Positions 362 through 1,428 of a DNA stretch of 45,976 nt are shown one piece after another. Under the pieces are notes generated by a model, which made no database searches, had not been told where the DNA came from, and worked only from the letters and a program-made list of their open reading frames with translations. Source of the DNA: Bacillus sp. FJAT-27245 (GTDB lineage Bacteria > Bacillota > Bacilli > Bacillales > Cytobacillaceae). Every line of letters begins with the position of its first letter. Within the stretch, counting starts at the first letter, position 1. The DNA lies in contig NZ_LIGI01000001.1 in NCBI RefSeq assembly GCF_001273955.1, positions 78,585 to 124,560 on the forward strand. The letters run 5' to 3'. The position numbers and the translations under genes are program-made.

Positions 362-370
362 TTTGATTAT

Positions 371-393
371 TCCGCAGTAGCTCAGTGGTAGAG
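371..393 (+). pseudogene. truncated tRNA-Asn 5' half (acceptor strand and D-arm only)
   Basis: These 23 nt are identical to the first 23 nt of the complete tRNA-Asn at 507. The sequence stops after the D-arm motif GGTAGAG and continues into unrelated sequence, so no anticodon, T-arm or 3' acceptor strand follows. Including 4 bp upstream (367-370), the 27-bp stretch 367-393 equals 503-529 exactly. See the 109-bp insert at 394-502. Confidence 0.85.
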
Positions 394-502
394 ACGAGCA
401 TCTCTACCATGAATAAGCTGCTAGTTGTACACGCCGAGCCGCTCCTTGCGAGACTTTCCGAGGCGGGGACATAATTGCTGTTCAAGAGTATGGATATACT
501 AT
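394..502 (+). mobile_element. 109-bp tRNA D-arm insert, copy A (unnamed)
   Basis: This 109-bp segment lies between the duplicated tRNA-Asn 5' half and the complete tRNA-Asn. A second segment of exactly the same length sits at the equivalent position of tRNA-Lys (1243-1351). By hand alignment the two are roughly three-quarters identical over their first ~87 positions (shared ACGAGC, TGAATAA, AGTTGTAC, CCGAGC, CTTGCG, GGGGACA, TGCTG), then diverge. Each is flanked by a 27/28-bp direct repeat beginning 4 bp before the tRNA. It has no ORF. I do not recognise a named family; it could be a non-autonomous mobile element or a structured RNA. Confidence 0.6.
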
Positions 503-506
503 TTAT

Positions 507-581
507 TCCGCAGTAGCTCAGTGGTAGAGCAATCGGCTGTTAACCGATCGGTCGTAGGTTCGAGTCCTACCTGCGGAGCCA
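507..581 (+). tRNA. tRNA-Asn (GTT), CCA encoded
   Basis: Acceptor TCCGCAG pairs with CTGCGGA. The anticodon loop CTGTTAA gives GTT, the T-loop is GTTCGAGTC, the discriminator is G578 and CCA is at 579-581. This copy is intact although its 5' half is duplicated upstream at 371-393. Confidence 0.95.
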
Positions 582-604
582 CTACTAATAAATTATAGAA
601 TAAT

Positions 605-677
605 GCTTCCATAGCTCAGTAGGTAGAGCACTTCCATGGTAAGGAAGAGGTCAGCGGTTCGAGCCCGCTTGGAAGCT
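605..677 (+). tRNA. tRNA-Thr (GGT), CCA not encoded
   Basis: Acceptor GCTTCCA pairs with TGGAAGC (670-676) and the discriminator is T677. Anticodon stem CTTCC/GGAAG encloses ATGGTAA, giving GGT. The following bases are TAT, so CCA must be added after transcription. Confidence 0.93.
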
Positions 678-689
678 TATTTTTATGAA

Positions 690-764
690 GGCCCCTTGGT
701 CAAGCGGTTAAGACACCGCCCTTTCACGGCGGTAACACGGGTTCGAATCCCGTAGGGGTCACCA
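690..764 (+). tRNA. tRNA-Glu (TTC), CCA encoded
   Basis: The gene starts GGCCCCTTGGTCAAG. Anticodon stem CCGCC/GGCGG encloses CTTTCAC, giving TTC. The T-arm is CGGGTTCGAATCCCG and the 3' end carries CCA at 762-764. Confidence 0.94.
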
Positions 765-771
765 TTTATTT

Positions 772-847
772 GGAGGATTAGCTCAGCTGGGAGAGCATCT
801 GCCTTACAAGCAGAGGGTCGGCGGTTCGATCCCGTCATCCTCCACCA
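772..847 (+). tRNA. tRNA-Val (TAC), CCA encoded
   Basis: Acceptor GGAGGAT pairs with ATCCTCC. Anticodon stem CTGC/GCAG encloses CTTACAA, giving TAC. Discriminator is A844, followed by CCA at 845-847. Confidence 0.94.
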
Positions 848-870
848 TTAATTTTAATAATATCCACTAT

Positions 871-946
871 GCCGGTTTAGCTCAATTGGTAGAGCAACTG
901 ACTTGTAATCAGTAGGTTGGGGGTTCAAGTCCTCTAGCCGGCACCA
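871..946 (+). tRNA. tRNA-Thr (TGT), CCA encoded
   Basis: Acceptor GCCGGTT pairs with AGCCGGC allowing a wobble. Anticodon stem CTGA/TCAG encloses CTTGTAA, giving TGT. It ends with encoded CCA (944-946). This is a second threonine isoacceptor beside the GGT gene at 605. Confidence 0.94.
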
Positions 947-953
947 TTTTATC

Positions 954-1038
954 GGTGGGGTAGCGAAGTGGCTAAACGCGGCGGACTGTAAATCCGCTCC
1001 CTCAGGGTTCGGCGGTTCGAATCCGTCCCCCACCACCA
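954..1038 (+). tRNA. tRNA-Tyr (GTA), CCA encoded
   Basis: 85 nt with a long variable arm (CTCCCTCAGGGTT region), as expected for a class II tRNA. Acceptor GGTGGGG pairs with CCCCACC. Anticodon loop CTGTAAA gives GTA. Discriminator is A1035, CCA 1036-1038. Confidence 0.94.
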
Positions 1039-1129
1039 ATTCCTGAATAGGGCAAAACAAAAAGAGCAATACTATGTATGTTCTTTTTAAGTTGTATCGG
1101 AATTCCTGTTTTGGGGAAAATAATGTTAT

Positions 1130-1201
1130 TGGGCTATAGCCAAGCGGTAAGGCAACGGACTTTGACTCCGTCATTCGTTGGTTCGAATCCAGCTAGCCCA
1201 G
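1130..1201 (+). tRNA. tRNA-Gln (TTG), CCA not encoded
   Basis: Acceptor TGGGCTA pairs with TAGCCCA (1194-1200) and the discriminator is G1201. Anticodon loop CTTTGAC gives TTG. The gene is followed directly by TC and a long T run (about 1203-1212), with no encoded CCA. Confidence 0.93.
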
Positions 1202-1218
1202 TCTTTTTTTTTATACTC

Positions 1219-1242
1219 GAGCCATTAGCTCAGTTGGTAGAG
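1219..1242 (+). pseudogene. truncated tRNA-Lys 5' half (acceptor strand and D-arm only)
   Basis: Identical to the first 24 nt of the complete tRNA-Lys at 1356. With 4 bp upstream, 1215-1242 equals 1352-1379 (28 bp). It breaks off after GGTAGAG at exactly the tRNA position where the tRNA-Asn half breaks off, and continues into the second 109-bp insert. Confidence 0.85.
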
Positions 1243-1351
1243 ACGAGCGAAGCTACGTGAATAATCTGCGAGTTGTACCCACCGAGCTGCTACTTGCGTT
1301 CCTTACTGAGGTGGGGACACACGTGCTGACGAGGTTTAGGATAGATAAATA
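1243..1351 (+). mobile_element. 109-bp tRNA D-arm insert, copy B (unnamed)
   Basis: Second member of the insert family, same length as copy A (394-502) and at the same D-arm position of a different tRNA. A stem CCCACC/GGTGGG can form around 1278-1283 and 1310-1315; in copy A the matching stem holds a G-C pair where this copy has A-T, a compensatory change. The tail is A/T-rich and differs from copy A. No ORF. Confidence 0.6.
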
Positions 1352-1355
1352 ACTC

Positions 1356-1428
1356 GAGCCATTAGCTCAGTTGGTAGAGCATCTGACTTTTAATCAGAGG
1401 GTCGAAGGTTCGAGTCCTTCATGGCTCA
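1356..1428 (+). tRNA. tRNA-Lys (TTT), CCA not encoded
   Basis: Acceptor GAGCCAT pairs with ATGGCTC (1421-1427), discriminator A1428. Anticodon loop CTTTTAA gives TTT. The following TAT shows no encoded CCA. Its 5' half is duplicated at 1219-1242. Confidence 0.94.

Follow-up and report, generated by a model that had tools for sequence, protein, structure and literature searches.

The window analyzed here, a stretch of 45,976 nt from the genome of Bacillus sp. FJAT-27245, contains a 5S rRNA gene (246-361) and a tRNA cluster that includes tRNA-Asn and tRNA-Lys. Each of these two tRNA genes is preceded by a unit of the same construction (Table 1), i.e. a partial copy of the tRNA, here called the pseudo-half, and a body of 109 nt, which is followed by the intact tRNA gene. 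The Asn unit is placed between the 5S rRNA gene and tRNA-Asn, and the Lys unit precedes tRNA-Lys in the same cluster. The repeats formed by the pseudo-half and the start of the intact gene are 27 nt (Asn) and 28 nt (Lys) long and 100% identical in both cases. The tRNA positions predicted by ARAGORN show that both repeats begin 4 nt 5' of the mature tRNA and stop after GGTAGAG. Exact repeats of this length, spaced 136-137 nt apart, are not due to chance. The two bodies are related to each other, and their alignment with six further copies from the same genome gave a mean column identity of 72%. Each body is composed of a conserved module and a tail. Thus, the exact repeats and the two related bodies at the D-arm that had been described in the first-pass annotation were confirmed to the nucleotide.

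Table 1. Features of the two units, in window positions; G000 denotes the window genome, A1 and A2 are alignments, and R1 is a covariance model.
Feature	Position	Strand	Evidence
Pseudo-half of tRNA-Asn: leader (4 nt) and tRNA nt 1-23	367-393	+	identity to 503-529; tRNA-Asn start 507
Module type A, Asn unit	394-471	+	alignments A1/A2; model R1 match G000:C1:78976-79061
Helix P2 (10 bp), 5' strand, Asn unit	426-435	+	A2 columns 37-46
Helix P2, 3' strand, Asn unit	462-471	+	A2 columns 74-83
Tail, Asn unit	472-502	+	stretch separating module from second repeat copy
Second repeat copy: leader and part of intact tRNA-Asn	503-529	+	repeat identity, ARAGORN
Intact tRNA-Asn (GTT)	507-581	+	ARAGORN
Pseudo-half of tRNA-Lys: leader (4 nt) and tRNA nt 1-24	1215-1242	+	identity to 1352-1379
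Module type A, Lys unit	1243-1319	+	alignments A1/A2; model R1 match G000:C1:79825-79909
Helix P2, 5' strand, Lys unit	1274-1283	+	A2 columns 37-46
Helix P2, 3' strand, Lys unit	1310-1319	+	A2 columns 74-83
Tail with GTTTAGG, Lys unit	1320-1351	+	stretch separating module from second repeat copy
Second repeat copy: leader and part of intact tRNA-Lys	1352-1379	+	repeat identity, ARAGORN
Intact tRNA-Lys (TTT)	1356-1428	+	ARAGORN

The first-pass annotation had left room for the bodies being members of a known RNA family. For the units, Rfam yielded nothing, neither in the whole window at the gathering score nor in positions 360-1440 up to an E value of 5. Also, no description of such units was found in the titles and the shown beginnings of abstracts of open-licence papers. 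Elsewhere in the window, Rfam matches were obtained for a glmS riboswitch-ribozyme (8228-8395, 124.7 bits) and for the 5' ureB sRNA family (23272-23564, minus strand, 87.3 bits), the latter of which may merely reflect a conserved urease gene.

The number of units in the window genome was analyzed with two kinds of queries. The Asn unit, used as a DNA query, was found at eight places, namely six units, its own pseudo-half, and one tRNA-Asn without a unit. The covariance model R1, which was built from 27 sequences, had at least 11 matches: three at tRNA-Asn (two of them in tandem), three at tRNA-Lys (one a variant), two at tRNA-Pro (one truncated), and one each at tRNA-Phe, elongator tRNA-Met, and tRNA-Arg-TCT. 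All 11 have the orientation of the tRNA, and what follows directly downstream is either a tRNA or another unit. A second genome (G047) contained at least 35 matches, and 35 of 35 were located in tRNA arrays on the tRNA strand, so that 46 of 46 matches of the two genomes are in sense orientation within tRNA arrays. These copy numbers are lower bounds because 11 to 150 candidates were scored per genome (150 of 1071 first-look candidates in the window genome and 150 of 835 in G047). Units also form tandem arrays, and tandem copies coincide with assembly gaps: two runs of units in G047 break off in gaps within the next tRNA copy, and a further gap is present in locus L176.

The bodies turned out to belong to a large family. 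In the family of the window genome, the covariance model matched 154 of 193 genomes and 22 of 25 genera; in its order, 216 of 397 genomes and 92 of 136 genera had matches, some of the weaker ones not at tRNAs. In a sample of the phylum, 2 of 299 genomes had matches, both from the same order, and the 295 sampled genomes from outside the order had no match at E 1e-4. A DNA pattern scan of named genomes revealed at least 116 stretches, in genera including Neobacillus, Bacillus, Mesobacillus, Robertmurraya, Peribacillus, Cytobacillus, Lederbergia, and Heyndrickxia. A local duplication confined to the two loci of the window, which the first-pass annotation had considered, can therefore be set aside, as relatives carry the bodies widely. 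Units were also present in records titled Pseudomonas sp. ISL-84 and Chryseobacterium sp. ISL-80 (L144, L179); the title of the L179 record is probably wrong.

The association with tRNA genes was quantified with and without the model. When 247 distinct model matches had been collected across the loci, 208 of them were followed at a distance of 26-72 nt by a same-strand tRNA, which was tRNA-Met in 126 cases, Asn in 34, Lys in 20, Phe in 15, Thr in 10, and Pro in 3. The remaining 39 comprised 37 with a same-strand tRNA farther away, a group that includes many inner array units, and two without a downstream tRNA. A single orientation prevailed, and the nearest downstream tRNA was on the same strand for 245 of the 247 matches. 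For the model-free search, 2172 tRNA contexts from all loci, a set enriched in units, were screened for copies of the 5' part of the tRNA (nt 2-14) at a distance of 40-400 nt and outside other tRNAs. Such a copy was present upstream in 240 contexts. In the same contexts, the 5' piece occurred downstream three times, whereas a 3' piece was found never upstream and twice downstream. Two of the 240 upstream copies (Tyr in L253, Leu in L168) resemble other, longer duplications.

The units have a common order of parts: the copy of the tRNA 5' part, a module of about 78 nt, in many copies the next nucleotides of the tRNA, a tail of about 30 nt, and the intact tRNA. For a detailed comparison, 195 model matches were used that were near full length, had a recognizable start and at least 45 nt of left flank, and were freed of duplicates. 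Pseudo-halves were compared with their own tRNAs in 171 of them (13 had the next tRNA more than 160 nt away, and 11 lacked one within 330 nt). The differences amounted to 56 of 3236 nt, and 146 of the 171 pseudo-halves were perfect. The two units of the window are of the GAG type, and no clear continuation of the tRNA can be recognized behind their modules. In many relatives the pseudo-half is two nucleotides longer, with GAGCA followed by ACGAGC across the junction. For pseudo-halves ending in GCA, the five nucleotides after the module (+1 to +5) agreed with the continuation of their own tRNA at frequencies of 0.99, 0.97, 0.85, 0.41, and 0.37, compared with 0.22, 0.32, 0.45, 0.18, and 0.29 for other tRNAs; no excess was found beyond +5 (123 of 171 units used). 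As a result of this matching continuation, the module looks like a precise insertion into a tRNA copy that ends a few nucleotides later. For initiator tRNA-Met, the end of the pseudo-half is at nt 14-15, after GGAGCA, and falls in the opposite D-stem strand. Many tails contain TAGG, often as TTTAGG, and a GAGCAT-like motif was seen for initiator Met, with four columns at 80% among 74 sequences.

The extent of the repeat was not uniform. For Asn, Lys, Phe, and elongator Met, the mature 5' end is located 23-27 nt upstream of the junction, and the excess likeness over shuffled pairs falls at about 26-30 nt from the junction; the set of 195 matches used here included array members, which inflates later positions for Asn and elongator Met. 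For initiator Met, the mature end is 14-15 nt upstream of the junction and the likeness extends 5-11 nt into the leader (0.89-0.98 versus 0.33-0.76 at -1 to -5, fading by -11). The excess likeness spans about 25-26 nt in total, which would suit a fixed repeat length. In other families, the repeat comprises about 17 nt for Val, and 31 nt plus 2-4 leader nucleotides in four of five Gly units; in one Gly unit, the duplication extends far into the leader. A constant ruler of 27 nt was considered and rejected as a general rule, as it fits most tRNA types of the window's family and fails for the Val and Gly units elsewhere. The start of the repeat may be set by an anchor at the mature 5' end or by a length rule.

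The module bears the mark of a conserved structured RNA, as its compensatory base-pair changes exceed the controls. Helix P2 (10 bp, columns 37-46 with 74-83 of alignment A2) was paired in 87.4% of the cells, and 6 of its 10 pairs had changed on both sides. Altogether, 31 cells had changed on both sides, compared with a mean of 8.8 in shuffled versions and 0-6 in slid versions; this count also covers a second helix (columns 33-36 with 57-60) that was part of the tested structure and failed, with 39.8% of cells paired. In a covariation analysis of 160 non-redundant units, four P2 pairs ranked at the top (z 13-20), and a fifth had a z of 8.3. The signals ranking between and after these pairs included two other kinds. 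Like-letter couplings, which are not pairs, connected the leader before the pseudo-half with the leader before the real tRNA, 140 columns apart, and are a mark of duplication or concerted evolution. Couplings among tRNA columns tracked the tRNA type. Folding of single sequences did not yield significant structure (z -0.6 to -1.1); the structure becomes visible by comparison alone. The units carrying it are placed inside tRNA and rRNA-tRNA arrays.

Several module types share the same junction. A start resembling that of type A was present in 172 of the 240 upstream copies, and other types occupy the same place. Type D was represented by 13 sequences, which were assigned by their continuations to tRNA-Phe (12) and tRNA-Lys (one). 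It contains a GATTGC/GCAATC stem, two pairs of which show compensatory changes, and a second hairpin, also with compensatory changes, that has a GNRA loop in 7 of 13 sequences and a loop of three nucleotides in 6 of 13, and it ends in GAGCA. Pieces such as TGAATAAGCT are common to module types. The same position in the D-arm of Lys and Phe tRNAs also accommodates longer inserts beginning with GATTTTAAAAG or GATTACGG (L225, L072, L057, L115), which would represent a further module type.

Relatives of the module were also found outside tRNA genes. At four loci (L259, L260, L273, L274), model matches had no tRNA within 3 kb. One genome (G217) contains an intergenic repeat at 49 pattern places, with and without a module relative. 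Of the 30 places examined, most had no module; the motif test was positive in three distinct places, and altered module forms were present in at least four more (L297, L307, L311, L321). The layout of this repeat (L277-L285, L297-L326) is GGAGCG..GGCGGCGACTCC..GAGGAGGCTGA..GCCCGCGGAAAGC..CCGCCTG. Another genome (G031; L273, L292-L294) carries a dispersed repeat of about 300 nt with the inverted ends GTTCAAAAAG and CTTTTTGAAC, which contains a module relative. The occurrence of relatives in tRNA units and in dispersed repeats indicates that different contexts make use of the module; the matches away from tRNAs are weak (25-40 bits), so that this kinship rests on shared motifs together with the model. 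A search of plasmids gave two partial matches, of 51-52 nt (Anoxybacillus) and 37 nt (Priestia), and the units had no match in the phage records searched or, by pattern, in the viral contigs searched. In the Anoxybacillus plasmid NZ_CP015440.1, 52 nt (151-202) match the Lys pseudo-half and the module start with 84.6% identity, possibly representing a unit on a plasmid.

Orthologous tRNA arrays of relatives were found in the empty as well as in the filled state. The gap between tRNA-Val and tRNA-Thr in rRNA-tRNA arrays was 1-72 nt in 25 loci, and it was 183 and 165 nt in two loci, both of which contained a unit matched to tRNA-Thr. At the Asn site, a unit was lacking in G007 and several other genera and present in G000, G005, G003, G016 (twice), G011, and G002 (twice), whereas G001 had a shortened copy there. 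The gap preceding tRNA-Lys was 1-6 nt in five genomes and filled in others, and some gaps were intermediate or contained another insert. A 272-nt gap between tRNA-Met and tRNA-Asp with repeated GTAGTGCAATCGTGCAACCAAA pieces was observed at L241. In the window, the left flank and the pseudo-half follow the 5S rRNA gene as the tRNA does in a genome with an empty site, which places the added DNA to the right of the pseudo-half. An origin of the units by insertion with regeneration of the tRNA 5' part is thus quite probable. The first-pass annotation had proposed insertion at the D-arm with a 5'-part copy that keeps the tRNA whole, and this part of its view is supported by the empty and filled sites and by the 240 upstream copies versus 3, 0, and 2 in the controls. 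Tandem arrays, the tRNA continuation after the module, interchangeable module types, and relatives in dispersed repeats were missing from that earlier picture.

In a module tree, which is weak as it is based on about 80 columns, the tRNA type changed 24 times, compared with a mean of 76 over 30 shuffles. Module identity, compared for loci with a known genome handle, was 0.769 for the same genome and different tRNAs (67 pairs), 0.768 for different genomes and the same tRNA (556 pairs), and 0.735 when both differed (2044 pairs). We read these results as an old association of modules with the tRNA type and occasional spread. In seven pairs of loci, the upstream flanks were at least 97% identical, and the modules were 0.93-0.97 identical in six pairs and 0.78 in one; as the flanks are mostly tRNA genes, this is a rough clock. 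The most similar modules at different tRNAs had an identity of 0.89, with 194 of the 195 modules carrying a tRNA label. Altogether, the family looks old, mostly inherited, seldom moved, and multiplied in tandem. The other part of the first-pass view, a mobile element that would need a helper, is unclear or unsupported: modules track the tRNA type, identity across tRNAs does not exceed 0.89, and no match came from the phage records searched or, by pattern, from the viral contigs searched.

The units share single features with several known systems. Phages and ICEs that integrate in tRNA genes likewise leave a complete tRNA and a tRNA fragment. The usual elements of this kind regenerate the 3' end of the tRNA. 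Here, in contrast, the 5' part is duplicated: 240 of the 2172 contexts have an upstream copy of the 5' part, whereas a copy of the 3' part occurs upstream in none and downstream in two. Also, a unit of about 136 nt, with a body of 109 nt, has no room for an integrase gene. Like MITEs and dispersed bacterial repeats, the units are short, non-coding, and present in many copies, and module relatives occur in such repeats of other genera; however, the units have one orientation, and all 46 matches of the two genomes are confined to tRNA arrays. Group I and group II introns in tRNA genes are also structured RNAs that interrupt the tRNA at one place, but the interrupted copy has no tRNA 3' half here and ends soon after the module, the intact tRNA follows, and no Rfam match to group I or group II intron families was found for the units. 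The tRNA fragments that are left when elements integrate into tRNA genes are described in PMC9897764. Bacillaceae-1 RNA (RF01690), listed in a table of PMC2864571, is a structured RNA of Bacillaceae, as the units are; it had no match in the window at the gathering score or at 360-1440 up to an E value of 5, and among the Rfam matches listed for L273 it lies downstream of the module relative, adjoining it without overlap.

Our preferred explanation, to which we give slightly less than even confidence, is that tRNA genes in the order of the window genome harbor an old family of non-coding insertion units. It starts from what can be read directly in the genomes, namely the architecture, the sense orientation, the compensated helix, the empty and filled sites, and the tandem arrays. 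A structured RNA module would have entered a tRNA gene after the GAG or GAGCA motif of the D-arm, and the tRNA 5' part would have been duplicated along with its entry, leaving a complete tRNA directly downstream. The unit would be part of the tRNA transcript and would presumably be lost as 5' leader once RNase P has cleaved at the intact copy. The direct repeats would allow slippage, which would multiply units and keep the pseudo-half like the tRNA, and movement to another tRNA would be rare. The best guess for the route of such movement is an RNA copy, because the units are in sense orientation, the repeat starts within a few nucleotides of the mature 5' end in most tRNA types, and the tRNA's own next nucleotides follow many modules. 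Even if the origin by insertion is granted, we consider the RNA route possible rather than probable; the overlap of the initiator Met repeat with the leader and the far-extended Gly duplication would not be explained by a copy starting at the mature 5' end. Insertion units are in line with modules that track the tRNA type and yet share similarity with those located at other tRNAs within one genome, whereas neither an excised or intermediate form nor a recent jump was seen. The GAG-type units of the window, which show no clear tRNA continuation, also speak against this explanation.

Alternatively, the unit might be a cis-acting RNA device for tRNA maturation, in which the upstream copy provides a second partner for the 3' half of the tRNA that follows, consisting of tRNA nt 1-26 and, after the module, nt 27-32, and the fold of the module picks the winning 5' half. 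The near-perfect pseudo-halves would fit this idea, given that modules at different tRNAs are only about 74% alike, and so would the conserved tRNA continuation, the several folded module types at one junction, and the inheritance of orthologous units. However, the true 5' half is closer to the 3' half, the initiator Met copy stops at about nt 17, short of the anticodon arm, and the few altered initiator Met pseudo-halves were seen by eye to be changed mostly in the acceptor strand, which would break pairs. Moreover, slippage can keep repeats of 26-31 nt alike and would account for near-perfect pseudo-halves without any function. We thus regard such a device as rather unlikely, and the same applies to its generalization, a novel class of RNA devices within tRNA operons whose interchangeable folded modules would control folding or maturation of the following tRNA. 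Function is a broader issue. As slippage does not explain why the continuation behind the module stays alike, this stretch may be under a constraint of some kind, and persistence over many genera, despite repeats that should permit clean loss, suggests a host function; that some benefit to the host keeps the unit is nearly, though not quite, an even call.

Two further explanations were considered. One ancient unit could have been spread among tRNA genes by recombination or gene conversion via the conserved D-arm, module types having changed through exchange with dispersed repeats. The low number of label changes in the module tree, the greater likeness of modules at different tRNAs within than between genomes, and the module relatives in dispersed repeats would all agree with such a history, but conversion of a short D-arm tract would not bring along the matching acceptor strand of the new tRNA, and most pseudo-halves match their own tRNA perfectly; we therefore consider it quite improbable. 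A relative of MITE-like DNA transposons, with a target duplication of about 27 nt made by a transposase, would explain the repeats of 26-30 nt for Asn, Lys, Phe, and elongator Met in the window's family as well as the 25-26 nt of excess likeness for initiator Met. This is very unlikely, however, since inverted repeats joining the ends (arms of at least 12 nt) were found in neither body of the window, all examined units have one orientation, and the repeat length does not appear to be fixed, being about 17 nt (Val) or 33-35 nt (Gly) in other families.

tRNA genes are well-known docking sites of mobile DNA, which uses their 3' ends. The units described here are a widespread family of fold-conserved RNA modules, unmatched in Rfam 15, that are tied to the 5' part of the tRNA. 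If the unit is a passenger, it would represent a new way of inhabiting an essential gene without doing harm. If the unit has a function, it would reveal a so far unknown level of control over tRNAs in a large order of bacteria.
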